32,541 nucleotides of DNA, from positions 1-32,541 of IMG/VR virus record IMGVR_UViG_3300032242_001184. One strand, 5' to 3'. Position numbers and translations under genes: made by a program. This document shows, in pieces, positions 1 to 21,360 of the stretch (position 1 is its first letter; every line of letters begins with the position of its first letter). The notes under the pieces are model-generated. The model searched no databases, had not been told where the DNA came from, and was given only the letters and a program-made list of their open reading frames with translations. The stretch comes from a virus.

Positions 1-6
1 AACAAA

Positions 7-81
7 TGGTACTCGGTACGAGAATCGAACTCGTCTTTCCGGCGTGAAAGGCCAGCGTCCTAACCGATAGACGAACCGAGC
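7..81 (-). tRNA. tRNA-Glu (TTC)
   Basis: Full cloverleaf with encoded CCA; 7-bp acceptor ending G-U at the first pair, anticodon loop CTTTCAC. It is the last tRNA of the leftward array and follows the structured RNA at 85-337. A second, very similar Glu(TTC) lies at 6909-6983, so the pair arose by duplication. Confidence 0.95.
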
Positions 82-84
82 ATA

Positions 85-337
85 CTCTATATAAAAACAC
101 ATTAGGATGTTTGACAACTATAACAGTTTTGATCCTGCCCTACCGTGCCGTCCACGGACTTGTTTGTCGCACACATTATAGTTCAAGTTGTTCCAGCGTG
201 ACTACCGTCTCAGCTTTGGTGCGAACCAGAGTTTCGTTTCCATCTTTCGTGTAACTTAATAGTGCTAGCCCGTCAGCTAGTTACTCACGTACTAAGTTAC
301 CTACTGGCTTGATAACCTAATGTATTTTCATATAGAG
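85..337 (-). ncRNA. Candidate structured RNA closed by a 22-bp helix
   Basis: No gene is visible in this stretch. Its ends (85-106 and 316-337) are complementary over 22 nt. Read as minus-strand RNA every position pairs, 20 Watson-Crick and two G-U; read as plus-strand RNA the same two positions become A-C mismatches, so the minus strand is the likely RNA. Inside are helices 251-258/293-300 enclosing 265-269/276-280, 116-123/176-183, and hairpin 143-147/153-157. A perfect host-type promoter at 419-447 points into it and tRNA-Glu follows directly. I do not recognise it as tmRNA, RNase P or 6S RNA. Tandem placement with phage tRNAs recalls the GOLLD and ROOL families, but it is much shorter. 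Confidence 0.6.
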
Positions 338-418
338 CCCTGAACTTAACAGGGATATATGTTTCTCTAAATTTTAAAGAACTCTTGCAACTACTCTATC
401 GTTTGTTGCTATGTGTCT

Positions 419-447
419 ATTATAACACCATTTGAATTAATTGTCAA
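419..447 (-). promoter_or_regulatory. Consensus sigma70-type promoter
   Basis: TTGACA (442-447) and TATAAT (419-424) are separated by 17 nt, a perfect consensus. The start would fall near 412, about 75 nt before the closing helix of the candidate structured RNA. A small hairpin (CCCTG/CAGGG at 338-342 and 350-354) lies in between. Confidence 0.85.
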
Positions 448-449
448 GA

Positions 450-499
450 ACTTTGTTTCAGTGCCGTTGCATATGCGGTGGACCTATCTGAAACAAAGT
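450..499 (-). ncRNA. Hairpin between two promoters
   Basis: A perfect 12-bp inverted repeat (450-461 with 488-499) encloses 26 nt containing the palindrome GCATATGC. It lies just downstream of the promoter at 522-550 and just upstream of the promoter at 419-447. It may be a short RNA, an attenuator or a processing site; there is no clear U-tract for a terminator. Confidence 0.4.
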
Positions 500-521
500 C
501 TTTTTCTCAACTCATGTATGT

Positions 522-550
522 ATTATAGCACCAACTTGATTTATTGTCAA
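522..550 (-). promoter_or_regulatory. Consensus sigma70-type promoter
   Basis: TTGACA (545-550) and TATAAT (522-527) with a 17-nt spacer. It overlaps the end of the HNH gene at 547-903 and reads into the hairpin at 450-499. Confidence 0.85.
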
Positions 551-903
551 ATTTTATGCTGTAGTACTTTTGTTTTCATTTCATAATGAATTTCAGTGTG
601 GCAATTCCTACAGACTAAAATACACTTATCTAATTCTTTTCGCAACTTATCTAGGTTGTATCCTCGACCGTTACTTAGTGCAAACTCTTTTTGCTTAGGA
701 TCAACGTGATGAAATTCTAATGCATCCATACACTTATCATACCCACAACAAGAACATTTGCCTCCGTATTCTTGTTTAACAATTTTAACATTGTCTTTAC
801 CACGCTGGGCAGTTCTTACATTCCAACATTCTTTACAATACCAACCCTGACTATTGTAAAAGTGTTCTTGACCTTCTTTGCTACAAGTTTTACATTTCCA
901 CAT
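547..903 (-). CDS. HNH homing-type endonuclease, 118 aa
   Basis: A free-standing HNH nuclease of the kind scattered through T4-like phages, which cleaves DNA and can mobilise itself or neighbouring genes. Four zinc-type cysteine pairs are visible (CKTC near residue 4, CKEC near 23, CSCC near 50, CRNC near 98). The core is LEFHHVDP followed by the CRNCH finger. The ATG is preceded by a GAGGAAA ribosome site and a late-type octamer GATAAATA (924-931). It sits between structured RNA and tRNA-Arg(TCT), with no intron or disrupted target in view, so it is probably intergenic. The nuclease assignment is firm; homing activity is inferred. Confidence 0.85.
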   Translation of the reverse strand: MWKCKTCSKEGQEHFYNSQGWYCKECWNVRTAQRGKDNVKIVKQEYGGKCSCCGYDKCMDALEFHHVDPKQKEFALSNGRGYNLDKLRKELDKCILVCRNCHTEIHYEMKTKVLQHKI

Positions 904-923
904 ATTTGTTTCCTCGGTTAGAG

Positions 924-931
924 TATTTATC
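924..931 (-). promoter_or_regulatory. T4-type late promoter octamer (GATAAATA)
   Basis: Octamer about 20 nt upstream of the HNH start, leaving room for a leader with a ribosome site. Confidence 0.5.
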
Positions 932-958
932 TCTAACCTAAAAAATATGTAGATTATT

Positions 959-1033
959 TGGTCCGGGGTGCAGGAATCGAACCCACATTCATCGGGTAGA
1001 AGCCGATTGTATTATCCATTATACTAACCCCAG
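959..1033 (-). tRNA. tRNA-Arg (TCT)
   Basis: Encoded CCA; acceptor pairs with one G-U; anticodon stem ATCGG/CCGAT around loop CTTCTAC. Reads AGA. Confidence 0.95.
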
Positions 1034-1054
1034 ATAAATTTCTAACTTGCCTCT

Positions 1055-1083
1055 ATTATAGCAGAATATTGATTTACTGTCAA
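1055..1083 (-). promoter_or_regulatory. Consensus sigma70-type promoter
   Basis: TTGACA (1078-1083), 17 nt, TATAAT (1055-1060). It lies between tRNA-Asn and tRNA-Arg(TCT) and drives the latter leftward. Confidence 0.85.
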
Positions 1084-1105
1084 CCTGTGACAATAACTAT
1101 TTGAA

Positions 1106-1181
1106 TGGCTCCACAGCCTGGGTTCGAACCAGGGACCAATTGATTAACAGTCAACTACTCTACCGACTGAGCTACTGCGGA
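1106..1181 (-). tRNA. tRNA-Asn (GTT)
   Basis: Cloverleaf with encoded CCA and loop CTGTTAA. A second Asn(GTT) gene is at 7465-7540. Confidence 0.95.
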
Positions 1182-1189
1182 ATAAATCT

Positions 1190-1265
1190 TGGTGCCCCCA
1201 CCATGACTTGAACACGGGACCTACTGATTACAAATCAGTTGCTCTACCAACTGAGCTATAAGGGC
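1190..1265 (-). tRNA. tRNA-Thr (TGT)
   Basis: Cloverleaf with encoded CCA; anticodon stem ACTGA/TCAGT around loop TTTGTAA. It is preceded by a perfect 8-bp hairpin (about 1273-1296) in the leader from the promoter at 1311-1339. A divergent second Thr(TGT) is at 6991-7065. Confidence 0.95.
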
Positions 1266-1310
1266 GTTTGTGATACAGTGTCGTTACTCACTGTATGTTT
1301 ATTTAGATTG

Positions 1311-1339
1311 ATTATATCACATCGAAACTTTTCTGTCAA
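1311..1339 (-). promoter_or_regulatory. Consensus sigma70-type promoter
   Basis: TTGACA (1334-1339), 17 nt, TATAAT (1311-1316). It starts the Thr/Asn tRNA transcript just downstream of the second HNH gene. Confidence 0.85.
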
Positions 1340-1354
1340 GAGTCGATGTGATGT

Positions 1355-1915
1355 TTAGGATAACAAAATTCTACTATGTTTAGGGACACCTGCAAGCAAG
1401 TATTCCATTTGGTCAGCAAGAATAGTTCTATGCTGTAGAATCATGTTTTCATAGTGGTTAGGTGCATAAGGTGCATACAATAGTTCCATACGTGCTTCTT
1501 TCAAAGTCTTATGGCCCTTCTTGCTATTACATTCCTTACATGCAGTTACCACGTTCATCCAAGTGTTTTCACCACCATGATACTTAGGTACAATGTGGTC
1601 ACGACTTAGATTGTTGTAGTTGGCATGATGTTCGCCGCAGTATGCACAAACATAACGGTCACGACCAAACAAGGTTCTGTTAGTCAATGCAACAGTTGAA
1701 TGCTTATGTGGGTTAAAGCTATGTCCCTTAATCGCAATGATTGAAGGAGATTCTAGGTAGCTTTCAGTTCCATCATTACGTACACCACCTCTATACTTAG
1801 CCACAACTTCACCCATACTCCATGCTACTGAATCAGTTGCGTGGTATGAGATTGCGTCATCGTATGAGATCCATTGCCGGGGAACTCCTGAAATGTCTAG
1901 TGCTAGAACAGCCAT
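1355..1915 (-). CDS. HNH endonuclease, 186 aa
   Basis: A second, unrelated-looking HNH nuclease. The C-terminal half carries the classic layout: CAYCG (near 90-94), the DHIVP motif with the catalytic His, a conserved Asn and the ACKECN finger with KKG. The N-terminal part (ALDISGVPRQWISYDDAISY) resembles the N-terminal domain of the widespread stand-alone HNH proteins of bacteria and cyanophages. A strong AAGGAG ribosome site precedes the ATG, with a late-type octamer CATAAATA at 1945-1952. It sits between tRNA-Arg(TCG) and tRNA-Thr, so it may help shuffle or spread the tRNA array, although that role is inferred. Confidence 0.88.
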   Translation of the reverse strand: MAVLALDISGVPRQWISYDDAISYHATDSVAWSMGEVVAKYRGGVRNDGTESYLESPSIIAIKGHSFNPHKHSTVALTNRTLFGRDRYVCAYCGEHHANYNNLSRDHIVPKYHGGENTWMNVVTACKECNSKKGHKTLKEARMELLYAPYAPNHYENMILQHRTILADQMEYLLAGVPKHSRILLS

Positions 1916-1944
1916 ACTATACTCCTTTGTTTACTGTCTACATT

Positions 1945-1952
1945 TATTTATG
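1945..1952 (-). promoter_or_regulatory. T4-type late promoter octamer (CATAAATA)
   Basis: About 30 nt upstream of the HNH gene at 1355-1915, with a separate AAGGAG site downstream. Confidence 0.5.
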
Positions 1953-1959
1953 TGCCGGT

Positions 1960-2034
1960 TGGAGGGTCGTAGAGGATTCGAACCCCTGACTACTGGTTTC
2001 GAAGACCAGAACTCTTCCACTGAGTTAACGACCC
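1960..2034 (-). tRNA. tRNA-Arg (TCG)
   Basis: Cloverleaf with encoded CCA; anticodon stem CTGGT/ACCAG, loop CTTCGAA. The discriminator base is U73, unusual for a bacterial tRNA-Arg (normally A or G). Confidence 0.93.
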
Positions 2035-2042
2035 GTTGTGTT

Positions 2043-2071
2043 ATTATACGACAAATGTGATTATTTGTCAA
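2043..2071 (-). promoter_or_regulatory. Consensus sigma70-type promoter
   Basis: TTGACA (2066-2071), 17 nt, TATAAT (2043-2048), immediately upstream of tRNA-Arg(TCG). Confidence 0.85.
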
Positions 2072-2119
2072 ATTTGTTGGTTTGAGATGGACGCTAAGAT
2101 ATAGTGTCCCTAGACGCAT

Positions 2120-2428
2120 TTATATTGTCTTACCTGTTCGGCTAGAAGTAATACCGTGTGCATTATTGTATTCTTCTCTTTTAGCTACAAAATCTATTAC
2201 TACTGGATCTGCGATTGATTCTTTGAATGATTCTTCACTATCCCATGCATGTACAATGGTCTGTGTCAATTTGTCACTAGACAAATCAATTTCTGCTAGC
2301 ATTACTTTACCAGTTAATAAATATTTTGTTCCCCAATTGGTTCTAAAGGCTTCATGTTGGCTGTCATTGACTGAAAAGAATTCTACATCAGTTGTAGGTC
2401 TTATTGATGTTACTATGTTTTCGTACAT
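2120..2428 (-). CDS. ~100-residue family protein, copy 1 (possible dimeric alpha/beta-barrel)
   Basis: 102 aa with no assigned function. It is one of four related small proteins in this window (others at 3034-3345, 11077-11391, 15051-15356). All share an opening strand, an RPxxDVxFF or PFY motif near residue 12-18, a middle S-x-D-x-LT-x-T stretch, then WDSEESF-type and DP motifs, and (copies 1 and 4) a REEYNxxxxIT tail. That layout, with two beta-alpha-beta halves and a WDSEE helix, resembles antibiotic-biosynthesis-monooxygenase (ABM) or other dimeric alpha/beta-barrel proteins. The fold is inferred. It is closest to the copy at 15051-15356, which like this one sits directly after a cupin gene. 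AGGAAA and an octamer GATAAATA (2450-2457) lie upstream. Confidence 0.7.
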   Translation of the reverse strand: MYENIVTSIRPTTDVEFFSVNDSQHEAFRTNWGTKYLLTGKVMLAEIDLSSDKLTQTIVHAWDSEESFKESIADPVVIDFVAKREEYNNAHGITSSRTGKTI

Positions 2429-2449
2429 ATTTATTTCCTATTGTAATGA

Positions 2450-2457
2450 TATTTATC
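2450..2457 (-). promoter_or_regulatory. T4-type late promoter octamer (GATAAATA)
   Basis: About 21 nt upstream of the ATG at 2428, with AGGAAA between. It overlaps the point just past the stop of the cupin gene. Confidence 0.45.
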
Positions 2458-2458
2458 T

Positions 2459-3037
2459 TCAAAACTCTTTATTTGACGATATGTCAGCATATCCCGGCAC
2501 TATTAGTGCATTTTCGTTATGGGATCGTATCAAATCTGCTTGGATAGGTCCGTGTAATTTGCCTTTCCATTGTATTGCGGCTGAAGTCATTTCTTCTGGT
2601 TTATACCACTTTTGAAACGCTAGTGTAACAAATCCATCACCTACTACAGCATCAGATATTCCACCATGTACTTCTCCGGGCATTAGTTTTGTATCAGTGA
2701 TACCCCATTTCATTGAAGTACCATTTTCTTGTTTTGGTGCTAAACTTCCTCCACCTAACTGCATAATGATTACTTCCATATCCGGATGTGAATGTTCTAA
2801 TATTTGCATTTGAGGGAACTCTAAATAGAATTCAACTTGATACATGCCTTTACGAAAAACACATACTGCCGAAGCATCATCACTGTGAATTACTTCTGCG
2901 TTCCATGGAACCATTAATGGCATTCTAGCATCTACATACCATTGTACAAAATCTTCTAAAGTGTCCCAATCATTTGGTATTTCAATATTTGCAAAATACT
3001 TTATTGAATCAAACTTTTTCCAAGTTCGAATAGTCAT
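2459..3037 (-). CDS. Cupin-domain protein, 192 aa (copy 1)
   Basis: A small cupin with a metal-binding core: EHSHPDMEV provides the two His and Glu of motif 1 and GEVHGG the His of motif 2. The N-terminal segment (DWDTLEDFVQWYVDARMP) and the C-terminal stretch (MTSAAIQWKGKLHGPIQ) are nearly identical in layout to the paralogue at 15406-15996. Cupins with this metal triad act as dioxygenases, isomerases or sensors; the substrate is unknown. The start overlaps the upstream gene by ATGA, so it is translationally coupled. It is part of a small unit (two ~100-residue proteins and a cupin) that mirrors the large accessory cluster. Confidence 0.8.
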   Translation of the reverse strand: MTIRTWKKFDSIKYFANIEIPNDWDTLEDFVQWYVDARMPLMVPWNAEVIHSDDASAVCVFRKGMYQVEFYLEFPQMQILEHSHPDMEVIIMQLGGGSLAPKQENGTSMKWGITDTKLMPGEVHGGISDAVVGDGFVTLAFQKWYKPEEMTSAAIQWKGKLHGPIQADLIRSHNENALIVPGYADISSNKEF

Positions 3038-3345
3038 ATGTTATCCTTTACTTCAGTTTTGATACTGATGGTGTTTATGTTATTATTTCTATCATATACT
3101 ATCATAGGTATGATATAATTGTCGTAGCAAAAAACATCAGTCATATAATCTAGTGCATCTTTTCTAGAATTCCAATATGTATGTATGCTCAGTATTAATT
3201 TATCTTTTGTATATTCTTGCTCTACTTTGAGTAATTTATTATGAAATATTCTATTGACATATTCATTATTATACATGTTATTGATTTCGGTATAAAAAGG
3301 AACGTCTGTGTTTACTCTTTTTTGTTCTTTTGTTATTTTAAACAT
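3034..3345 (-). CDS. ~100-residue family protein, copy 2
   Basis: 103 aa. I chose the ATG at 3345, not the in-frame GTG at 3360, because the product then begins MFKITKEQ and aligns from residue 1 with MFKLIKKF of the copy at 11077-11391. Motifs shared with the family are the PFY near residue 17, the Y-T-K-D-K-L-I-L-S strand, then W-N-S-R and a D-x-x-x-Y segment. No function is known; a dimeric alpha/beta-barrel is a guess. The late-type octamer ACTAAATA ends 4 nt before the ATG, with no ribosome site, so the mRNA may be leaderless. It is divergent from the plus-strand PP-loop gene 27 nt away. Confidence 0.68.
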   Translation of the reverse strand: MFKITKEQKRVNTDVPFYTEINNMYNNEYVNRIFHNKLLKVEQEYTKDKLILSIHTYWNSRKDALDYMTDVFCYDNYIIPMIVYDRNNNINTISIKTEVKDNI

Positions 3346-3349
3346 AATA

Positions 3350-3357
3350 TATTTAGT
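3350..3357 (-). promoter_or_regulatory. Late promoter octamer, predicted leaderless start
   Basis: ACTAAATA followed by 4 nt and ATG. It lies almost back-to-back with the plus-strand octamer at 3360-3367. Confidence 0.55.
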
Positions 3358-3359
3358 CA

Positions 3360-3367
3360 CATAAATA
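3360..3367 (+). promoter_or_regulatory. Late promoter octamer, predicted leaderless start
   Basis: CATAAATA followed by 5 nt and the ATG at 3373. T4 late octamers sit about -13 to -6, so transcription would start at the ATG. Confidence 0.55.
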
Positions 3368-3372
3368 TGTCA

Positions 3373-4317
3373 ATGCAATTTACATTAAACAACTGGTATG
3401 AATGGTACTATGATGATGAATTATTTGGACGTCAAGACCTAAATAACTTTAAAAAATATACCACCCGTTATAATTGTAACATATCAACATTAGGCACATA
3501 CAAAGAAGAATTACACAATACTGCACGTAATACGCTTGAAATTTTTAATGGCAAAGATTTGACATTGTGTTTTTCAGGTGGCATGGATAGTGAAGTTGTA
3601 TTGCGTAGTTATTTAGAAATAGGGCATCCTATTAAAGTAGTTATCTATCGATATGAAAATAATATCAATCAGTATGATGTGCATCACGCAATAAAAGTAT
3701 GTGAACAATTAGGATCACAATACAAAATAATTGATTTTAATCTTGCTAAATTTTTTGAAACTGATGCAACTGATATGATTGAAAGCTGTCAAATTGACAA
3801 GCCTATGCAATTAGTTGGGTGTAAGTTTTTAGAAATCACTGAGGGAATACCCATCATGGGAGAGGGAGACCCATTAATTAATATGCGTCCTGCAAATGAT
3901 GCAGATGATAAAACAAACTATTATTGGGCAGTATCTGACTGGAGTGCAGAAATTTGCCGAGAACAATATGTTAGACATATTAATAAAAAATCAATAACTG
4001 CTTGGCTACAATGGAGACCCGAAGTAGTATTAGCTTGTTTAGAATCGGAGTATGTTCATAAGCTTATAACAAATCAATATAGAAATGTATATAGCTGTTT
4101 AAGCAACAAGTACGAACAATACAGTGTATATTTCCCTAACATAATTAACAGAGAAAAAGTTAGCGGGTTTGAAGATGTACCAATTGGCATTGTTGATGAG
4201 TTTAAAAAACACATCATAAAAACCAATGGATCAAAAATGAAATATATGCAACCTCATGATAGAACTGTTAGTCAAGTTATCAATGAACTAAGAGGTCGTT
4301 CTAGGTTGTCAAAATAA
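3373..4317 (+). CDS. PP-loop (SGGxDS) ATP pyrophosphatase-like protein, 314 aa
   Basis: Carries the PP-loop SGGMDS at about residues 68-73, the signature of N-type ATP pyrophosphatases (asparagine synthase, NAD synthetase, QueC, ThiI and similar), which adenylate a substrate for amidation or thiolation. Immediately after it, VVLRSYLEIGHPIKVVIYRY matches the equivalent part of the gene at 20359-21225, so these two form one subfamily. The closest known activity cannot be named. ATG 3373 is preferred over ATG 3367 because it lies exactly 5 nt after CATAAATA, as in other genes here; there is no ribosome site. It is one of only two plus-strand genes, both inserted in the tRNA array. It ends just before tRNA-Phe, which is on the other strand. 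Confidence 0.8.
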   Translation: MQFTLNNWYEWYYDDELFGRQDLNNFKKYTTRYNCNISTLGTYKEELHNTARNTLEIFNGKDLTLCFSGGMDSEVVLRSYLEIGHPIKVVIYRYENNINQYDVHHAIKVCEQLGSQYKIIDFNLAKFFETDATDMIESCQIDKPMQLVGCKFLEITEGIPIMGEGDPLINMRPANDADDKTNYYWAVSDWSAEICREQYVRHINKKSITAWLQWRPEVVLACLESEYVHKLITNQYRNVYSCLSNKYEQYSVYFPNIINREKVSGFEDVPIGIVDEFKKHIIKTNGSKMKYMQPHDRTVSQVINELRGRSRLSK

Positions 4318-4319
4318 TT

Positions 4320-4395
4320 TGGTGCCAACGAATGGGATCGAACCATTGACGCACAGATTTTCAGTCTGTCGCTCTACCATCTGAGCTACGTCGGC
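4320..4395 (-). tRNA. tRNA-Phe (GAA)
   Basis: Canonical cloverleaf with encoded CCA, loop CTGAAAA. Compare the Phe-like arm inside the element at 4611-4700. Confidence 0.95.
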
Positions 4396-4400
4396 TTGTT

Positions 4401-4475
4401 TGGTGGATGATAGTGGGATCGAACCACTGACCTCTTCGATGTCAACGAAGTATTCTACCGCTGAAATAATCATCC
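4401..4475 (-). tRNA. tRNA-Val (GAC)
   Basis: Cloverleaf with encoded CCA; stem CTTCG/CGAAG, loop TTGACAT. Confidence 0.93.
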
Positions 4476-4481
4476 GAAATT

Positions 4482-4602
4482 TGGCTGCGCCCCAGGGATT
4501 CGAACCCCGACCTCGTCCTTGACAATGGAATGAAGTAGATTGCTGTTTGTATCCTTGACAGGATAACTTTTCTACGTGTGCTAACCATTACACTAAAGCG
4601 CA
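4482..4602 (-). tRNA. tRNA-Asp (GTC)-like gene interrupted in the anticodon arm
   Basis: Acceptor, D-arm, T-arm (TTCGAAT loop) and CCA are intact, but the anticodon arm is expanded by about 46 nt, so the gene is 121 nt. TGTCAAGGA occurs twice (4516-4524 and 4552-4560 on the complement), so the anticodon region is partly duplicated with a 36-nt period. The insert also contains the box AGGAT-N4-ACAGCAA found in the elements at 4611, 5383 and 7074, but with the ATCCTG half placed before it. It could be an intron, a dead gene or a processed RNA. An intact tRNA-Asp(GTC) exists at 7384-7458. The insert is too short for a group I intron. Confidence 0.6.
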
Positions 4603-4610
4603 AAATAAAA

Positions 4611-4700
4611 CAGGATAGAAAGTTTACGGATTCGAACCGTTAAGTTTCTTTTTCAGAGAAATTGCGAACCAATCGCGGTATTGTTTGCTGTGGCTATCCT
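4611..4700 (-). ncRNA. Hairpin element (E3) with tRNA-Phe-like core
   Basis: Closed by the 7-bp helix AGGATAG/CTATCCT, followed by G and T-rich sequence, with the box ACAGCAAA near the 5' side. The inside holds D-like (GCG/CGC), anticodon-like (TTTCT, loop CTGAAAA, AGAAA) and T-like (ACGG, loop TTCGAAT, CCGT) arms, but no matching tRNA acceptor stem directly on them and no CCA. It could be a decayed tRNA-Phe trapped in the element, or a tRNA with an extended acceptor region. Confidence 0.5.
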
Positions 4701-4705
4701 AAAAC

Positions 4706-4779
4706 TGGCACCCGGAGTAGGAATCGAACCTACAATAGCAGAGTCAAAGTCTGTTGTGTTACCACTACACTATCCGGGA
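4706..4779 (-). tRNA. tRNA-Gln (TTG)
   Basis: Cloverleaf with encoded CCA, loop CTTTGAC. Second Gln(TTG) at 7302-7375. Confidence 0.95.
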
Positions 4780-4786
4780 ATAAATT

Positions 4787-4863
4787 TGGTAGCCTCACTG
4801 TGACTCGAACACAGGACCCCCGCCTTATCAAGACGGTGCTCTAACCAACTGAGCTATGAGGCT
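4787..4863 (-). tRNA. tRNA-Ile (GAT)
   Basis: Canonical cloverleaf with encoded CCA, loop TTGATAA, normal T-loop. Compare the aberrant Ile(GAT) at 5301-5374. Confidence 0.95.
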
Positions 4864-4960
4864 AAACTTCTTTGGGGTGACCACTGGGAATCGAACCCAG
4901 ACTAAGAGAATCACAATCTCTGTTGCTAACCGTTACAACATGGCCACACCAAAGAAGTTT
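4864..4960 (-). repeat. Perfect 12-nt inverted repeat flanking tRNA-His
   Basis: AAACTTCTTTGG (4864-4875) and its complement (4949-4960) enclose tRNA-His, and one arm includes the CCA. The precursor can form a long coaxial extension of the acceptor stem that hides the CCA end until processed. Confidence 0.6.
4873..4947 (-). tRNA. tRNA-His (GTG)
   Basis: Cloverleaf with encoded CCA, loop TTGTGAT, discriminator C73 as expected for bacterial His. The base at position -1 is T, not the usual G, so the G-1 identity element would have to be added or supplied otherwise. Confidence 0.92.
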
Positions 4961-4963
4961 AAT

Positions 4964-5038
4964 TGGTGGTGATAGTTAGATTCGAACTAACGACCTGCTC
5001 CGTATGAAGGAGATGCACTACCGCTGTGCTATATCACC
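4964..5038 (-). tRNA. tRNA-Met (CAT)
   Basis: Cloverleaf with encoded CCA; loop TTCATAC. The 5' end pairs fully (G1-C72), so it is not a canonical initiator. Elongator Met is most likely; a lysidine-modified Ile2 tRNA cannot be excluded. Confidence 0.9.
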
Positions 5039-5044
5039 GTTGTT

Positions 5045-5139
5045 TGGAGGAAAGCAGAGGAGTCGAACCCCATCCCATTCTTCATGAGAACCTAGTTTTC
5101 AAGACTAGTCGCCGGACCATCCCGACTGCATTACTTTCC
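5045..5139 (-). tRNA. tRNA-Ser (TGA)
   Basis: Class II tRNA of 95 nt with a long variable arm, stem CTAGT/ACTAG and loop CTTGAAA. Discriminator reads U73, whereas G is usual for Ser. Confidence 0.92.
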
Positions 5140-5300
5140 ATTATAAAGGCGGGAGCCTAACTATCTTGTTGTTAGCAAGCCTTGTTAGATTGTCTCGAAT
5201 AAGAGAGTTTATACTACCATGTAATCGTGTGCGGTGTCACATAGCCGACCAAAACTATGCTAGATTACTAGGGACTCTATCTTACCGTCTATCCCAAAAC

Positions 5301-5374
5301 TGGTTCCCTGTCGAGGTAACGATCCTCGGTCGCACGATTATCAGTCGTGTGCTCTACCTTTGAGCTAACGGGGA
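5301..5374 (-). tRNA. tRNA-Ile (GAT), divergent
   Basis: Anticodon stem CACGA/TCGTG with loop CTGATAA is clean. The T-loop is ATCGTTA in place of TTCGAAT, swapping the T54-A58 pair to A54-T58, and the acceptor has one C-A mismatch. It duplicates the normal Ile(GAT) at 4787. About 160 nt upstream (5140-5300) holds no gene but several short hairpins. Confidence 0.75.
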
Positions 5375-5382
5375 ATATAAAA

Positions 5383-5444
5383 CAGGATGTATTTTTACGA
5401 GTTGAATTAAAAGTTCAGTGTATAAAATTTGCTGTTAACATCCT
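5383..5444 (-). ncRNA. Hairpin element (E1)
   Basis: 7-bp closing helix AGGATGT/ACATCCT with box ACAGCAAA after it, then G and TTTTAT. It lies between the CCA of tRNA-Leu and the start of tRNA-Ile. The inside holds a TGAA/TTCA stem with 7-nt loop CTTTTAA, which looks like a Lys anticodon loop; this may be chance. Confidence 0.55.
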
Positions 5445-5449
5445 AAAAC

Positions 5450-5527
5450 TGGTACCCCGAGTCGGATTCGAACCGACACGATTCTCCTTTTGAGAGAGAC
5501 ACCTCATTCCAATTGGGTTATCGGGGC
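5450..5527 (-). tRNA. tRNA with CAA anticodon (Leu) lacking a long variable arm
   Basis: Encoded CCA; anticodon stem TCTCT/GGAGA, loop CTCAAAA, T-stem GTCGG/CCGAC. A 3-bp D-stem with a long D-loop fits Leu or Ser, but the variable region is only 5 nt, whereas bacterial tRNA-Leu is class II with a long arm. Confidence 0.75.
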
Positions 5528-5529
5528 AA

Positions 5530-5718
5530 TTATATTTTTGTATCTACATGACGACCTTTGGTGTTGTCAGGCTCTATTCGTCCTGTATCATCATAAAGGC
5601 GTTCTACAACTTCTATAACTTTTTTGTGAGTTACAGGATCTTCAAGTGTTGTGTATACAGTGTTTTTATAACCTGTACTAGTAACACCCATCGTGCTGTG
5701 TATTGATTGAACTATCAT
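5530..5718 (-). CDS. Small hypothetical protein, 62 aa
   Basis: No family recognised. Composition is mixed and charged (VIEVVERLYDDTGRIEP), without a membrane segment. I chose ATG 5718 rather than ATG 5745 because it lies exactly 5 nt after a perfect TATAAATA octamer (5724-5731), as in the other predicted leaderless genes; the longer start would place the promoter inside the coding region. Just upstream is a 17-bp inverted repeat that ends in the CCA of tRNA-Lys. It lies in the tRNA array with no partner genes. Confidence 0.6.
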   Translation of the reverse strand: MIVQSIHSTMGVTSTGYKNTVYTTLEDPVTHKKVIEVVERLYDDTGRIEPDNTKGRHVDTKI

Positions 5719-5723
5719 ATAGA

Positions 5724-5731
5724 TATTTATA
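5724..5731 (-). promoter_or_regulatory. T4 late promoter octamer (TATAAATA), predicted leaderless start
   Basis: Perfect T4 late consensus followed by 5 nt and ATG 5718. It overlaps the inner edge of the inverted repeat at 5730-5809. Confidence 0.6.
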
Positions 5732-5809
5732 CCATATAGAAACACACTGTTGTTACCTCACCCATAGCCCGTTGTATGCACCGTGACGGCAATGTGTTTC
5801 TATATGGTA
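5730..5809 (-). repeat. Perfect 17-bp inverted repeat with 46-nt loop
   Basis: Arms 5730-5746 and 5793-5809 match exactly. The distal arm contains the CCA and discriminator of tRNA-Lys(TTT). The loop extends the helix with TTGCC/GGTAA. It could cap the tRNA 3' end, act as a terminator-like or processing hairpin, or occlude the late promoter. Confidence 0.65.
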
Positions 5810-5879
5810 GGGGCACAGGGAATCGAACCCTGATAGACTGGTTAAAAGCCAGCTATTCTAGCCGTTGAATTATACCCCC
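5805..5879 (-). tRNA. tRNA-Lys (TTT)
   Basis: Cloverleaf with encoded CCA; loop CTTTTAA. Confidence 0.94.
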
Positions 5880-5882
5880 ATA

Positions 5883-5957
5883 TGGTCCCTCCGCTCAGAA
5901 TCGAACTGAGTCTTCTCGGATTAAGAGTCCGGTATGCTACCGTAACATCTCGAAGGG
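5883..5957 (-). tRNA. tRNA-Lys (CTT)
   Basis: Cloverleaf with encoded CCA; loop CTCTTAA. Its 5' leader forms a hairpin (5955-5961 with 5987-5993, inner 5964-5969 with 5979-5984) that competes for the first three acceptor bases. Confidence 0.92.
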
Positions 5958-6019
5958 ATGGATCGTAAATAATTTTCTTTTACGTGCCATCCCTGACCAT
6001 ACGGGGGTCAAGAATGACA

Positions 6020-6043
6020 CTATCGTTTACCTGAACGTTTCAT
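6020..6043 (-). CDS. Possible 7-codon minigene (MKRSGKR)
   Basis: AAGGAG lies 6 nt before an ATG that opens a 7-codon basic peptide ending in TAG. The only support is the ideal ribosome site and a consensus promoter 23 nt upstream (6066-6094). It could be a leader peptide or chance. Confidence 0.25.
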   Translation of the reverse strand: MKRSGKR

Positions 6044-6065
6044 GTCGTTCTCCTTTTAAAAATGT

Positions 6066-6094
6066 ATTGTATCACACTTGTGATTTATTGTCAA
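6066..6094 (-). promoter_or_regulatory. Near-perfect sigma70-type promoter
   Basis: TTGACA (6089-6094), 17 nt, TACAAT (6066-6071). The -35 lies inside the 28-nt direct repeat 6086-6113. Confidence 0.75.
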
Positions 6095-6113
6095 ACTATG
6101 GTGCGACCTAAGA
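6086..6113. repeat. 28-nt direct repeat, copy 1 (tRNA-Arg 3' end remnant)
   Basis: 27 of 28 positions match 6813-6840. It carries the acceptor 3' strand, discriminator and CCA of tRNA-Arg(ACG), then diverges at the T-arm. It is one boundary of a 727-bp unit that contains a plus-strand gene, as at an attachment site. Confidence 0.75.
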
Positions 6114-6195
6114 TATTCAAACTTCCAACTCCTCTGCATCACTTTCCGTTACTCGCATAAACTTATAAAATCTGGCAGACAACAAGTTACGCTAG

Positions 6196-6203
6196 CATAA
6201 ATA
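6196..6203 (+). promoter_or_regulatory. Late promoter octamer (CATAAATA), predicted leaderless start
   Basis: Followed by 5 nt and ATG 6209. Confidence 0.55.
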
Positions 6204-6208
6204 TCAAA

Positions 6209-6778
6209 ATGACTGATTATTGTGTTGATTTAACTTTACCCATAAACCCATTGATTGATGGTATATCCATTGATAGTTTACAAGAAAACAATGCTCAATG
6301 GACTCCTATATCACTAGAATATATTAACTCTGATTTAAAAAAATTATTTCAGTCTCTAGATTTAAAAATAAAAATAGCCGGATTATTCGTACTCAATGGT
6401 TATTCCTCATTAGGTGTACACATTGATGGATTTGAAATTTATGATGCAACTAAAATAAATTGGTCATATAATACTAATTATGACATGGTATGGTACAATG
6501 TTAGGGCAAAAAATAAAAAAAATATAGTTGGAACCGCTAATCCAAATAATTCGTCATTACTACCAAGATATTATGTATCATATAATAAAAACGAAGTTGA
6601 AGAAATATATCGTTATGAAATTAAATTTCCCAGTATAGTACAAGTAGGTATACCACACACATTGGAAAATTATACGGGTGTTAAAAAATGCTTGTCAATC
6701 ACATTATTTGACATGGACAATAAAACTGTTCCAATGCACAGAGCAAAAGAACTATTTTCACAATATTTGGCACCATAG
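6209..6778 (+). CDS. Putative Fe(II)/2-oxoglutarate-type oxygenase, 189 aa
   Basis: Small protein with an HxD motif (His71, Asp73 in VHIDGF) and a distal His near 150 (IPHTLENYTG), the usual 2-His-1-carboxylate iron site of beta-hydroxylase-like oxygenases. The residue that normally binds 2-oxoglutarate (Arg) appears to be Lys (TGVKKCLSITL). It resembles in layout the proteins at 11455-11904 and 17826-18410. Family assignment rests on motifs only. Its position is striking: it is on the plus strand, has its own late-type promoter and is bracketed by 28-nt copies of the 3' end of tRNA-Arg(ACG), so it looks like a gene cassette delivered into the array. Confidence 0.65.
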   Translation: MTDYCVDLTLPINPLIDGISIDSLQENNAQWTPISLEYINSDLKKLFQSLDLKIKIAGLFVLNGYSSLGVHIDGFEIYDATKINWSYNTNYDMVWYNVRAKNKKNIVGTANPNNSSLLPRYYVSYNKNEVEEIYRYEIKFPSIVQVGIPHTLENYTGVKKCLSITLFDMDNKTVPMHRAKELFSQYLAP

Positions 6779-6812
6779 ACGGGAATCTAGCCTGTCTTTA
6801 CAACTCGAAGGC

Positions 6813-6840
6813 TATTGTCAAACTTTGGTGCGACCTAAGA
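6813..6840. repeat. 28-nt direct repeat, copy 2 (within intact tRNA-Arg)
   Basis: This copy continues into the complete tRNA-Arg(ACG); see 6086-6113 for the broken copy. Confidence 0.75.
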
Positions 6841-6902
6841 GAGTCGAACTCCTGACCCCCAAGTTCGTAGCCTGGTGCTCTATCCATCTGAGCTAAGGTC
6901 GC
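6826..6902 (-). tRNA. tRNA-Arg (ACG)
   Basis: Cloverleaf with encoded CCA; loop CTACGAA. Its 3' end is the repeated segment at the border of the cassette. Confidence 0.94.
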
Positions 6903-6908
6903 ATTGTA

Positions 6909-6983
6909 TGGCACTCGGTACGGGAATCGAACCCGTCTTTCCAACTTGAAAGGCTAGCGTCCTGACCGATAGACGAACCGAGT
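6909..6983 (-). tRNA. tRNA-Glu (TTC), second copy
   Basis: Closely similar to the gene at 7-81 but with loop CTTTCAA and a weaker anticodon stem (two G-U pairs). Confidence 0.94.
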
Positions 6984-6990
6984 ATAAATT

Positions 6991-7065
6991 TGGTGCTCCA
7001 TGACAGACTTGAACTGCCTTCTACGGACTACAAAACCGTTATTCTACCACGTGAACTAATAGAGC
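6991..7065 (-). tRNA. tRNA-Thr (TGT), second copy
   Basis: Acceptor and T-arm are good; anticodon stem ACGGT/TCCGT has one T-T mismatch and loop TTTGTAG. Divergent from Thr at 1190. Confidence 0.85.
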
Positions 7066-7073
7066 ATATAAAA

Positions 7074-7129
7074 CAGGATGCATTTGTTTTCACCAAAAGA
7101 AAAGTTTTTAACTTTGCTGTTAGCATCCT
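7074..7129 (-). ncRNA. Hairpin element (E2)
   Basis: 7-bp closing helix AGGATGC/GCATCCT with box ACAGCAAA, then G and TTTTAT, between tRNA-Cys and tRNA-Thr. The inside holds a 5-bp stem TTTTC/GAAAA with a 7-nt loop TTTTGGT. Compared with E1 and E3, closing-pair positions 6-7 change on both sides together. Confidence 0.55.
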
Positions 7130-7134
7130 AAATC

Positions 7135-7209
7135 TGGTGGAAACCGTGAGAATCGAACTCATCTAGTCAACAAGGTTGCAAACCCCGCCCGTGCCCCAGC
7201 ACTGCCCCC
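7135..7209 (-). tRNA. tRNA-Cys (GCA), atypical
   Basis: Anticodon stem CGGGG/CCTTG with loop TTTGCAA and encoded CCA. The acceptor relies on three G-U pairs and ends in an A-G mismatch, the D-loop is only about 4 nt, and the gene is unusually G/C-rich on its 5' side. Confidence 0.75.
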
Positions 7210-7215
7210 ATATTG

Positions 7216-7294
7216 TGGTCTGTATGGTAGGATTCGAACCTACGACCTCTCAGTTCCAAACCGAGCCGTCTGACCTGACTGACATTACACACAG
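7216..7294 (-). tRNA. tRNA-Pro (TGG)
   Basis: Encoded CCA; stem CTCGG/CTGAG, loop TTTGGAA, long D-region. Confidence 0.9.
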
Positions 7295-7301
7295 ATAAAA
7301 T

Positions 7302-7375
7302 TGGCAGAGGCACTTGGAGTCGAACCAAGGATAACAAGTTCAAAGCCTGTTGTGTTTCCGTTACACTATGCCCCA
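7302..7375 (-). tRNA. tRNA-Gln (TTG), second copy
   Basis: Encoded CCA; loop CTTTGAA; first acceptor pair T-T, as tolerated in Gln tRNAs with a weak 1-72 pair. Confidence 0.92.
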
Positions 7376-7383
7376 ACAAATAC

Positions 7384-7458
7384 TGGCGATGCGTGGGAGA
7401 ATCGAACTCCCGTCTTCGGATAGACAATCCGAGATAATGACCATTATATGAACGCACC
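7384..7458 (-). tRNA. tRNA-Asp (GTC), intact
   Basis: Encoded CCA; stem TCGGA/TCCGA, loop TTGTCTA. This is the functional counterpart of the interrupted gene at 4482-4602. Confidence 0.94.
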
Positions 7459-7464
7459 TAAATT

Positions 7465-7540
7465 TGGCTCCCCAGCGTGGGATCGAACCACGGACACCTT
7501 GATTAACAGTCAAGTGCAACTACCGCTGTGCTACTGGGGA
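7465..7540 (-). tRNA. tRNA-Asn (GTT), second copy
   Basis: Encoded CCA; stem CTTGA/TCAAG, loop CTGTTAA. First tRNA of the leftward array. Confidence 0.95.
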
Positions 7541-7547
7541 ATAAAAT

Positions 7548-7819
7548 ATGTCACTACAGCTTAACCCGTCAGAAGGGTCAGGGATTTGTTCATCTGTAGT
7601 AAGCATTCTAAAACACATTCACCCGAATGGACATTGTCACCTCCGTCTACGGTCGGAAATATGTTTTAGAATGCCGTGTATTGCTACACGACATGATAGG
7701 GTTGATACCCTACCCAGTAGTCTTACTAGTGCGTTATCGCCACACGTTCATGTATACTGTCCGCCCATTCTATACATTTTGCGCTGTATTACGGCTCTCG
7801 TTGCCTATTCACGCTTCTA
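7548..7819 (-). ncRNA. Hairpin-rich non-coding stretch upstream of the tRNA array
   Basis: No convincing gene. On the minus strand it folds into many local hairpins: a perfect 13-bp stem GCATTCTAAAACA with its complement (7607-7619 and about 7662-7674), stem ACTACAG/CTGTAGT (7553-7600) around a 6-bp stem with 7-nt loop TTCTGAC, CGTGT/ACACG, and TAGGGT/ACCCTA. It may be the 5' leader of the tRNA transcript or an independent structured RNA. Confidence 0.45.
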
Positions 7820-7987
7820 TCAGTTTTGCTTAGTCAGTGCAAGCACCTTCTTAGTAGCCTCTTGATAGAGTTTTGCACGTTCAATCTTATTAAGGATCAA
7901 TTGTGCATACTGTTCTTTTGTCAAAACATGATCGCTAAACCAATCACGCTTTTTGTCAGAAGAACCTGATTCTACTGTATTTTTCAT
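7820..7987 (-). CDS. Small hypothetical protein, 55 aa
   Basis: A short, charged, probably helical protein (DWFSDHVLTKEQYAQLILNK then ERAKLYQEATKKVLAL). No family recognised. AAAGGA lies about 14 nt before the ATG, rather far. A promoter-like TTGACA-17-TAGAAT overlaps the start codon (7969-7997), so either this promoter or the ORF start may be wrong. It follows the terminator at 8032-8063 in the direction of transcription. Confidence 0.5.
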   Translation of the reverse strand: MKNTVESGSSDKKRDWFSDHVLTKEQYAQLILNKIERAKLYQEATKKVLALTKQN

Positions 7988-7997
7988 TTACTGTCAA
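7969..7997 (-). promoter_or_regulatory. Promoter-like TTGACA-17-TAGAAT
   Basis: Perfect -35 and spacing, five of six in the -10. It could initiate the hairpin-rich RNA and tRNA array. Confidence 0.45.
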
Positions 7998-8030
7998 ATT
8001 TCCTTTGTTGTTTTTAAGCAACACAAACAA

Positions 8031-8063
8031 AAACCCCTGAGACTTTTTAGTTTCCCAGGGGTT
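8031..8063 (-). terminator. Rho-independent terminator
   Basis: Stem AACCCCTG/CAGGGGTT (8032-8039 with 8056-8063), followed on the minus strand by TTTTTGTTTG. It ends leftward transcription from the accessory cluster before the tRNA region. Confidence 0.85.
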
Positions 8064-8089
8064 CGATAAATGTGTACTATGTGTAGACT

Positions 8090-8224
8090 TTACCTGTCCC
8101 CCGGGCTCCACTCTTGTGAATCATTGCCGCGAATACTTGTAGGATATGATGGTACAAAGGATGCTAAGGCTATTGTGGCCGCTAGCGTCTGATGTTTCGT
8201 CATATTACAAATAAAGTTTGTCAT
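8090..8224 (-). CDS. Possible small protein, 44 aa
   Basis: The ORF begins just after an ACTAAATA late-type octamer (7 nt upstream) and ends before the terminator. It has a hydrophobic patch (TLAATIALASFV) followed by a polar tail, so it could be a secreted or membrane-linked peptide. No homologue recognised and no ribosome site. Confidence 0.4.
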   Translation of the reverse strand: MTNFICNMTKHQTLAATIALASFVPSYPTSIRGNDSQEWSPGDR

Positions 8225-8301
8225 AGTGTTTTATTTAGTCCTGGTTAAAAATTACTGCAAATAAGCACTGTTTTTTGTGCCTTTTCGCAATTCATGTATG
8301 A

Positions 8302-8330
8302 ATTATAGCAGAGAAGTGAATTAGTGTCAA
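8302..8330 (-). promoter_or_regulatory. Consensus sigma70-type promoter
   Basis: TTGACA (8325-8330), 17 nt, TATAAT (8302-8307), right after the stop of the gene at 8339-9028. Confidence 0.85.
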
Positions 8331-8338
8331 CACTTTTT

Positions 8339-9028
8339 TCACAATTTGGGCACATCCACTGTAATTTTTACAGGCGTATGTGACTTCAAGTGCGAGTGTA
8401 TTGTGGTGCTTAGTGTATCATCGCTGTTAAGTGTGAGACCAAAATGCTCATCCCAAAATAAATCATTGTATTCCCATTTAGATAAACTATTACTACGAAT
8501 GTATTCTTCTATGCCCACATATTCGTTATGTAACTTCTCTCGCATTATTGTTGGGTTTTGATAGTAGGTACTATAATTGGGGTATGTGATGCGCTCGAAT
8601 CCACCTGCTATCATCCATGCATTATAGCAGAATTCTTCAGGAGCAGTGACAAATATAAAATCACTTAAAGGAAATTCTTCACGTAACTTGTGTAGATGTA
8701 GACTTAGTACATGGCTTTTGACTAGTTTTTTTCCAGGAGTAGACATGTCCCATACTTTAGCAATATCTTGAAGGATGTTCTCACGTGTTACTCCTTCAGC
8801 TAGGTGCCAATTCTCTCCGAGACCCATTCCAGGACCAAAGTAACAACCTTGATGTGTTATACCCGGGGCAGAGTGTGCGGTCTTGCCTGGTATTGCATGT
8901 TGGTAAAATCTGTCAGGAGTATGGTCAGTGAGGTCAAAGGTTCCAATTGGAGACAGGTGTGTCAATAGGTTACTAAAACCACTCCATCTACTGCCTGGCA
9001 CTCCTATCACAAACGTAATATTTTTCAT
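8339..9028 (-). CDS. Sulfotransferase-like P-loop protein, 229 aa
   Basis: The N-terminus FVIGVPGSRWSGFSNLL (near residues 5-21) resembles the PAPS-binding P-loop strand-turn-helix of sulfotransferases, and VKSHVLSLHLHKLREEFPLSDFIFV (near 104-128) fits the second conserved segment in which the RS/KSH motif and the strand before the 3'-phosphate site lie. It is likely to transfer sulfate from PAPS, but the acceptor is unknown and catalytic residues are not confirmed. The start overlaps the upstream gene by ATGA. It is the last gene of the P450 operon, just before a terminator. Confidence 0.65.
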   Translation of the reverse strand: MKNITFVIGVPGSRWSGFSNLLTHLSPIGTFDLTDHTPDRFYQHAIPGKTAHSAPGITHQGCYFGPGMGLGENWHLAEGVTRENILQDIAKVWDMSTPGKKLVKSHVLSLHLHKLREEFPLSDFIFVTAPEEFCYNAWMIAGGFERITYPNYSTYYQNPTIMREKLHNEYVGIEEYIRSNSLSKWEYNDLFWDEHFGLTLNSDDTLSTTIHSHLKSHTPVKITVDVPKL

Positions 9029-13114: not shown

Positions 13115-14041
13115 TTATTCTTGTTTTACTTTTTTAATTATAGGGGCCCACATATCATATTCTTTTTTAACATATTTTTTAAAATCCACAGAAGTCATTG
13201 TTACTGGTGTGGCACCCAATGTTAAAAATTTGTCTGTTGATTTTTTTACTGAATCATTGATAACACTATTAAATTCACTAATGTAACTCGGGTCTGTACC
13301 TATAGGTGCAAATAGACCAAACCAAGTAGTTATTACTAAATTAACTTTAGATTCTTGTAATGTAGGCACATTGGGTAAAATAGCAAACCGATTTTTAGAA
13401 GTTACTGCAATCGCTCTAAGTTTTTTTGAATTAATATGCTGTATTACTCCGGGAATGGTAGCAAACATCCATTGAGTATTACCTGATATTAAATCTACTA
13501 CAGCTTCTGAACCCTTATAAGGAATATGAGTAGACATAATGCCTGTATGTTGTGCAAATAACAAAGAAGCCATGTGTGCTGTAGAACCTATACCAGTACT
13601 ACCATGATTTACTTTTTTAGGAAACTGTTTACTATACGCTAATAAATCATCTATAGTATAAATATCGGACGATGCAGGGACTACTAAAACTAATGGAACT
13701 TGTGCCATGATTGCAATAGGTTCTAAATCTAATAGAGGTTCAAAATTCATTTCATACAATACAGGATTAGATACAAAAAGACTTCCTCCTGTCACCAATA
13801 TTGTATTTCCGTCTGGTTTACTTTTTACTACTTTTTCTGCACCTAAATTTCCACCTGCTCCGGTTTTAAATTCAACCATAATTCGCTGTGACCATTTAAT
13901 ATCTAAATTTGCAATAACTTCTCTAGCTAGTAAGTCAGTTGTGCCACCGGGAGAATGAGTAACTACAAACGTGATTGGTTTAGATGGTTGGGCATGTATA
14001 TTTATTGCCCATAACAATAAAAACGCTAATATATGTTTCAT
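13115..14041 (-). CDS. Bug/TctC-family periplasmic binding protein, 308 aa
   Basis: A hydrophobic signal peptide (residues about 1-17, then HAQPSKP) precedes a tripartite-tricarboxylate-transporter receptor fold: SPGGTTDLLAREV, GAGGNLGAE, VTGGSLFVSNP, HGSTGIGSTAH, IPYKGSEAVVDLISG and the FGLFAP turn are all family-typical. Such proteins bind carboxylates in the periplasm and normally work with the TctA/TctB membrane proteins, absent in this window. The family is vastly expanded in Burkholderiales, so a betaproteobacterial donor or host is likely. Its role in phage infection is unclear: capture of a carboxylate substrate or priming of the host's uptake are options. A late-type octamer AGTAAATA ends 4 nt before the ATG. 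Confidence 0.92.
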   Translation of the reverse strand: MKHILAFLLLWAINIHAQPSKPITFVVTHSPGGTTDLLAREVIANLDIKWSQRIMVEFKTGAGGNLGAEKVVKSKPDGNTILVTGGSLFVSNPVLYEMNFEPLLDLEPIAIMAQVPLVLVVPASSDIYTIDDLLAYSKQFPKKVNHGSTGIGSTAHMASLLFAQHTGIMSTHIPYKGSEAVVDLISGNTQWMFATIPGVIQHINSKKLRAIAVTSKNRFAILPNVPTLQESKVNLVITTWFGLFAPIGTDPSYISEFNSVINDSVKKSTDKFLTLGATPVTMTSVDFKKYVKKEYDMWAPIIKKVKQE

Positions 14042-18410: not shown

Positions 18411-19123
18411 TTTTGTATAAGATGATCTATGTCTTTGGTTCCATTTACAGAAATCATAAAGGTATATCTATCATGCTTGCTCATATTCAGTACAGCATGT
18501 TTGTATCCTGTATTTAAAAAATATGCTTTACCCGGGACAAATGTAGTAGCTTCAACATTGTTCTTAACCCAAAATAAATTTACACACTCAGGGTCAGCAA
18601 TGACAGGTATGATGATTCTAACTGCATAGCTAGGATCATAATCTATATGCGGGGTGATATTACTACCTGCTTCTAATTTTACCAAACGAATTCTAGTGGT
18701 TTTTCCCTTGAACTTATTAGTAATTCTGTCAAACACATGTGCATATCTTTTATAAATTTCAGTCTTTACTGTGTATGTTGATTCATTCATCACGCTAGAT
18801 GCATCTAATCCTAAGGATTGTTTTCTTTTGTGATTAGACAAAATACCGGAATCGTGCAGACTTTCATGCACAACTTCACATTCGTCTAATGTGATAGATT
18901 TATTTTCTACGGTGCTATCTGTTAATCCAATTTGAAAAAAGTTATCATATACAGATTTTGAGAGTTCATGATGAATCCCACACAGACCTTTGTTAACTTC
19001 TAATACTGATTTGAATTCAGTATTCAACTCATTCACGCAGTTGACTAGCTCTCTAAGCAAGTCATCTTCCAAACACAGATGCTCAACTACACAATGTGGC
19101 GGTAGTCTATGTTTCAGTTTCAT
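18407..19123 (-). CDS. Aspartyl/asparaginyl beta-hydroxylase-like oxygenase, 238 aa
   Basis: ATG 19123 was chosen since it overlaps the desaturase stop by ATGA; an upstream in-frame start would extend into the desaturase. His159-x-Asp161 (TPHIDYDPSYAVRIIIPV), distal His209 (GYKHAVLN) and Arg219 (DRYTFMIS) are all present, as is the jelly-roll segment between them. This is the best supported 2-oxoglutarate oxygenase in the window. Such enzymes hydroxylate side chains or free amino acids. The neighbours (desaturase, oxygenase, sulfotransferase) suggest a series of modifications on one scaffold, though that is inference. Confidence 0.8.
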   Translation of the reverse strand: MKLKHRLPPHCVVEHLCLEDDLLRELVNCVNELNTEFKSVLEVNKGLCGIHHELSKSVYDNFFQIGLTDSTVENKSITLDECEVVHESLHDSGILSNHKRKQSLGLDASSVMNESTYTVKTEIYKRYAHVFDRITNKFKGKTTRIRLVKLEAGSNITPHIDYDPSYAVRIIIPVIADPECVNLFWVKNNVEATTFVPGKAYFLNTGYKHAVLNMSKHDRYTFMISVNGTKDIDHLIQK

Positions 19124-21231: not shown

Positions 21232-21360
21232 TTAAATTGTTTCGTAGTCAGCTTTGAAGCCACCACACTCTGGGCAAGGAAAGTCCTCTGGTAAATCTTC
21301 CCACTTACCTTCTGTTTCTTCGTCATGTACATGACCGCAAATTACACAAACGTGATCCAT
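21232..21360 (-). CDS. Rubredoxin-like protein, 42 aa
   Basis: Cys5-x-x-Cys8-Gly and Cys29-x-x-Cys32-Gly form the iron knuckles of rubredoxin (VCVICG, PCPECG), with the spacing of the rubredoxin tail of rubrerythrin. It is shorter than free-standing rubredoxins (about 52). It starts in a TAATG overlap with the rubrerythrin stop, so the two halves of a normally fused rubrerythrin are separate but coupled here. It could donate electrons to the di-iron site of the neighbour, or to the oxygenases. Confidence 0.85.
   Translation of the reverse strand: MDHVCVICGHVHDEETEGKWEDLPEDFPCPECGGFKADYETI

Follow-up and report, generated by a model that had tools for sequence, protein, structure and literature searches.

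Several kinds of structured RNA are associated with the tRNA genes of phages. GOLLD and ROOL are structured non-coding RNAs of phages and prophages that often lie near tRNA islands; their function is unknown, and examples of 659 nt and over 800 nt form nanocages (PMC12286853). RNAs C and D of phage T4 (species 1 and 2; rnaC and rnaD, NC_000866) are small stable RNAs of 139 and 119 nt, which are encoded in the phage tRNA cluster on the strand of the tRNAs. Outside phages, the closest parallel is the rrn operon, in which boxA recruits an antitermination complex and active 30S subunits depend on a leader-trailer helix of more than 17 bp (PMC10250234). Phage tRNAs themselves are a means, demonstrated or proposed, of escaping tRNA-targeting defences (PMC10264068; PMC11555353).

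Here, we analyse a window of 32,541 nt (IMG/VR record IMGVR_UViG_3300032242_001184), a 32.5-kb linear viral fragment with 24 tRNAs, all 24 on the minus strand. Its NrdA is at most 60% identical to those of isolate phages, hence the phage group of the window appears to be uncultivated. At positions 85–337, on the minus strand, it carries a structured RNA belonging to a family of about 200–250 nt. Like GOLLD and ROOL, the members of this family are phage-encoded near tRNA genes, but GOLLD and ROOL are several times larger, whereas the 85–337 family has a framing stem that often sits flush against the end of a tRNA. Like T4 RNAs C and D, the RNA is found within a cluster of phage tRNA genes and on their strand, although it is longer than either. 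GOLLD and ROOL are thus the nearest in kind and T4 RNAs C and D the nearest in position, and the resemblance to all four is one of kind, not of sequence. The phage layout can also be regarded as formally the same as an rrn operon leader, with a strong promoter, a boxA-like motif, a long helix joining the RNA ends and a tRNA after it, although the RNA enclosed in the phage version is not rRNA.

A stem-framed RNA and its leader

A preliminary description, made from the letters of the window alone, interpreted the region as a structured RNA not described before, adjacent to the tRNA array, with a 22-bp closing helix that pairs completely only on the minus strand, at least four internal helices, a perfect promoter ahead of it and a tRNA behind it. 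The present analysis supports that proposal. On the minus strand the closing stem is complete, with 22 pairs that include two G-U, and the internal helices number more than four, those of the ten-helix family model being backed by compensatory changes in relatives. The tRNA that follows is tRNA-Glu(UUC) (81–7, minus strand), 3 nt past the stem. The promoter is present at 447–419 (minus strand; TTGACA-17-TATAAT, 12 of 12 positions) and is one of seven perfect TTGACA/TATAAT promoters within positions 1–8,500 of the window, all on the minus strand in the tRNA region. The minus-strand RNA (337 to 85) folds at −78.9 kcal/mol against −57.1 for shuffled sequences (s.d. 4.5; z = −4.89; 0 of 200 shuffles), and the plus strand of the same region folds at −63.7 (z = −3.1). 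A protein-coding reading was rejected, as stop codons occur in all three frames of the window RNA and member lengths vary widely. The features are collected in Table 1.

Table 1 Features of the structured RNA and its surroundings in the window
Feature	Position	Strand	Remarks
Structured ncRNA, long class, stem to stem	85–337	−	Fold z −4.89; core 97–325 matched by model R1
P1 closing stem, 5' arm	316–337	−	Pairs with 85–106; inner ten pairs covary across members
P1 closing stem, 3' arm	85–106	−	Pairs with 316–337; fold and covariation
P1b, 5' strand UUAU	312–315	−	Pairs with 176–179; alignment covariation
P2, 5' strand	303–311	−	Pairs with 184–187 and 193–197, one-sided bulge between
P3 and P4 hairpin	251–300	−	P3 292–300/251–259, P4 275–279/266–270; GACG-type loop
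P5 region	198–250	−	Alignments and P5 pairs
P6 domain enclosing P7 and P8	113–168	−	Covariation alignments
P7, GACGG loop (family GACGR)	153–157 with 143–147	−	Inside P6
P8	123–138	−	Inside P6
Small hairpin CCCUGUUAAGUUCAGGG	338–354	−	Just 5' of P1
BoxA-like leader motif AGTTCTTTAAAATTT	369–383	−	Resembles E. coli rrnB leader
Promoter TTGACA-17-TATAAT, TG before −10	419–447	−	12/12 consensus match
tRNA-Glu(UUC)	7–81	−	3 nt downstream of structured RNA
Short-class stem frame copy	5730–5809	−	Overlaps CCA end of tRNA-Lys(UUU) 5805–5879; fold z −5.5

Two elements of an rRNA-type leader are found in the window: a long framing helix, whose arms covary, and, between promoter and RNA, a sequence that resembles boxA. 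For comparison, the E. coli rrnB leader carries GCTCTTTAACAATTT about 140 nt ahead of 16S. Across 1.09 Mb, copies of the boxA-like sequence GTTCTTTAAAAATT with up to two mismatches number 130 on the RNA strand versus 28 on the opposite strand; 113 of these 130 are located no more than 120 nt upstream of a tRNA or a long-class RNA. Many members that do not follow a tRNA also have, ahead of P1, a hairpin similar to the one just 5' of P1 in the window. The picture suggested is that phage tRNA arrays are stable-RNA operons with an organisation like that of rRNA operons, and that they carry more than tRNAs.

Relatives, covariation and genomic setting

An initial blast search with the element, against records with a related NrdA, gave short matches in tRNA arrays, several of them to a closing-stem arm only. 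Scans of IMG/VR with arm patterns, and with arm-independent patterns taken from the interior hairpin P7, returned two classes of element, long and short, and 115 distinct long-class members were collected. A covariance model (R1), built from 16 aligned long-class members with the window left out, matches the window core (97–325) with a score of 100.7 bits (E about 2e-23), and it connects diverged subgroups with E values of 1e-7 to 1e-15. Because both alignments described below are fitted to the structure and their sequences are related, detection of the held-out window is the cleanest single test.

In the alignment of members selected by their arms, 95.3% of pair cells are standard pairs (76.4 after shuffling), 46 of 56 pairs show double-sided changes (29.3 after shuffling) and the covariation score is 0.353, compared with 0.117 for shuffled and 0.03–0.06 for slid controls. 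The set selected by interior patterns was chosen independently and gives 94.7% paired cells, double-sided changes in 44 of 56 pairs (32 after shuffling) and a score of 0.489 (0.161 after shuffling). Compensatory changes exceed both the column-shuffled and the slid controls, with 0 of 500 shuffles reaching the observed double-sided counts, a statistic that overstates significance because long-class members share descent.

Support extends through the individual helices. P1b is UUAC/GUAA in most members and the compensated UUAU/AUAA in the window; P2 is paired in 98–100% of cells, with double-sided change in 7–8 of its 9 pairs; P4 is 100% paired with every pair covarying, and the P3–P4 hairpin loop is of the GACG/GCCG type across the family. 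P5 is a short GCC/GGY hairpin in most members, and an insertion has enlarged it in the window. The motifs GGUUACC, AGGU, ACAnGAA and GUAAUG are conserved among long-class members. The fold of the RNA is conserved, and evolution has clearly preserved its structure.

Exactly one copy is present in each of the 32 positive records (15 + 17, of up to 367 kb). R1 finds no match in 35 of 50 large related records; either the RNA is not universal among them, or R1, which was trained on one subgroup (B), misses copies distant from that subgroup. All 1,621 tRNAs in long-class loci are on the strand of the RNA. In 53 of the 115 members a tRNA-Glu lies directly upstream and the RNA starts on its CCA, and in another 32 a tRNA-Glu follows closely downstream; many of the remaining members are at contig edges or beside tRNA-Asp. 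This usual placement inside tRNA arrays may be likened to that of a small ribosomal-RNA unit. On about nine contigs, a long-class copy occurs with no tRNA nearby. Several of these free-standing copies are directly behind TTGAC/TATAAT-type promoters, and most have a shorter closing stem. Given the copies without tRNAs, several of them right behind promoters, the core appears to be a gene in its own right; the long flush stem seems to be an adaptation to existence within an array. The proteins neighbouring two free-standing copies match only PHROGs of unknown function or have no match.

The result is a further RNA family, with good support for its secondary structure. It is widespread among large uncultivated phages; neither Rfam, nor the isolate phages tested, nor the open-licence literature searched contains it. 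A blastn search of the INPHARED isolate phages with three members gave no match to the RNA, only tRNA matches and one short chance match, and a model search of T4, Xanthomonas phage X1, Stenotrophomonas phage Moby and Delftia phage phiW-14 found no copy. In bacterial genomes, none of 10 pattern matches was confirmed by the model. Open-licence literature on such an RNA, or on boxA in phage tRNA operons, consisted only of papers on GOLLD/ROOL, phage tRNAs and rrn operons.

Short inserts in the same frame

The arms CCAUAUARAAACACAYU and ARUGUGUUUYUAUAUGG also frame shorter inserts, mostly 60–130 nt overall, one of which is present in the window (Table 1). The short-arm set comprises 188 elements with tRNA context (loci L082–L221), including a few long-class copies. 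The start is exactly on the upstream CCA in 123 of the 188, and 45 of those 123 also end 1–2 nt inside the next tRNA; no element of the 188 has a neighbouring tRNA on the opposite strand. At stem position 8, 143 of 241 elements share a conserved A-C mismatch, which may serve as a recognition feature.

Flush stems were also surveyed at loci not chosen by the short-arm scan (L222–L385). They follow tRNA-Lys(UUU) in 32 of 66 cases, tRNA-Lys(CUU) in 8 of 15, tRNA-Gln(UUG) in 21 of 67 and tRNA-Glu(UUC) in 53 of 105, the Glu figure being biased by selection; the corresponding values are about 2% for other tRNAs and 18 of 1,594 for random positions. Shared descent could explain part of this bias. The Lys, Gln and Glu tRNAs are those that share the mnm5s2U34 type of wobble modification.

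The interiors of the short class are highly diverse (226 distinct sequences in 151 clusters, 109 of them singletons), and the same cluster can follow different tRNAs. The tRNA T-arm motif GTTCRANTC occurs in 14 of 162 interiors where 0.2 would be expected (in L103, L106, L136, L164, L166, L172, L193 and others), and the interiors bearing it are, judging by this motif, tRNA-derived or tRNA-like inserts. On average the interiors are weakly structured (mean z −0.48; other strand −0.20), hence we make no strong functional claim for them. Stem-framed inserts offer a concrete, testable handle on the old question of the role of non-tRNA RNAs in phage tRNA clusters.

Proposed function and alternatives

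The 85–337 RNA is probably a stable, trans-acting phage ncRNA of about 200–250 nt that is excised from the tRNA transcript through its rRNA-style closing stem. We infer its transcription, excision and trans action, the last from its conservation, its single copy per record and the free-standing copies. Transcription would start early, from host-type promoters; in arrays the RNA would belong to a polycistronic transcript of tRNAs, and the boxA-like leader of that transcript would, by analogy with rrn operons, recruit host rRNA antitermination factors. The long closing stem would join both ends of the RNA, as the leader-trailer helix does for 16S rRNA, and, on the same analogy, may be cut by RNase III of the host or a similar nuclease; a search of 26 large related records for a phage-encoded RNase III (PF00636) found none. 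RNase P and 3' trimming would free the adjoining tRNAs and leave a compact, stable RNA. The mature RNA would act via its conserved junction nucleotides GGUUACC, AGGU, ACAnGAA and GUAAUG and its GACG/GCCG-type loops, with the scaffold of an RNP, or a regulator or inhibitor of a host function, as the most likely predicted role.

A broader reading, which we hold to be possible but doubtful, places the RNA in a small-RNA cassette system: a common stem frame, fitted flush to tRNA ends, would hold exchangeable inserts together with one widely kept core RNA, the 85–337 family. The inserts would be released with the tRNAs and would serve as decoys or counter-defence RNAs, tRNA-targeting defences being one example of what they oppose. 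If true, this would explain the hypervariable interiors (the 151 clusters of our sample), the preference for Lys, Gln and Glu tRNAs and the presence of T-arm motifs in some interiors. Since evasion of such defences has been demonstrated or proposed for phage tRNAs, it is attractive to suppose that stem-framed inserts may have a counter-defence role. It is unlikely that the 85–337 RNA is itself an anti-defence RNA, acting as the short inserts would to inhibit or decoy a host antiviral system, for instance a nuclease that targets tRNAs. The strong sigma-70-type promoters, the concentration of flush stems on Lys, Gln and Glu tRNAs, the exchangeable, hypervariable interiors with their T-arm motifs and the known or proposed countering of tRNA-targeting defences by phage tRNAs (PMC10264068; PMC11555353) are consistent with it, but the long class is conserved rather than hypervariable and no likeness to a known target was found.

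That the stem does nothing more than separate tRNAs in the transcript, around a functionless interior, is improbable for the long class. Stems flush with tRNA ends, most short elements beginning on CCA, and hypervariable, weakly structured short interiors would all fit such a processing spacer, and for some short-class elements it may well be true. However, the interior of the long class is conserved, with covariation across eight inner helices, and this class occurs once per record and also away from tRNAs. We likewise give little credence to cis-regulation of tRNA-Glu expression or maturation by an attenuator, sensor or processing switch. A tRNA-Glu adjoins the RNA in 85 of 115 members, but the RNA is upstream of it in some phages and downstream in others, several copies are beside tRNA-Asp and others alone, and we saw no alternative fold that would form a terminator.

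That the RNA is a far-diverged version of a known family (RNase P RNA, group I intron, GOLLD, ROOL, T4 RNA C or D) is very improbable, although GOLLD, ROOL and the T4 RNAs occupy a similar setting. The preliminary description recognised no family, and Rfam bears this out: searches of Rfam 15 to E 10 with positions 1–1,000 of the window matched only tRNAs and eukaryotic or low-scoring chance hits, none over the structured RNA itself. Three diverged members (the window, L152 and L168) gave nothing credible at gathering thresholds or to E 10, and left the RNase P RNA, tmRNA, 6S RNA and group I intron models unmatched; the GOLLD and ROOL models had no match to E 10 in positions 1–1,000 or in the L152 and L168 members. 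With filters off, R1 reached a best E of 0.17 in the T4 tRNA region, at a site other than rnaC and rnaD; a search of the complete T4 record gave no match. A MITE-like mobile DNA element with the closing stem as terminal inverted repeats is scarcely credible: conserved arms, variable interiors and multiple copies per array recall one, but the inverted-repeat reading is disfavoured because the arms covary as RNA pairs and orientation is fixed relative to the tRNAs (no opposite-strand neighbour among the 188 short elements), and free-standing copies have different, shorter stems, the CCA boundary is exact and the long class occurs as one copy per positive record.

Elsewhere, the window encodes, all on the minus strand, a cytochrome P450 (9939–11087; PF00067, E = 1e-19), a TctC transporter receptor protein (13115–14041), a fatty acid desaturase (19120–19824), a rubrerythrin (21360–21827) and a NifU/IscU-like protein (22154–22534).
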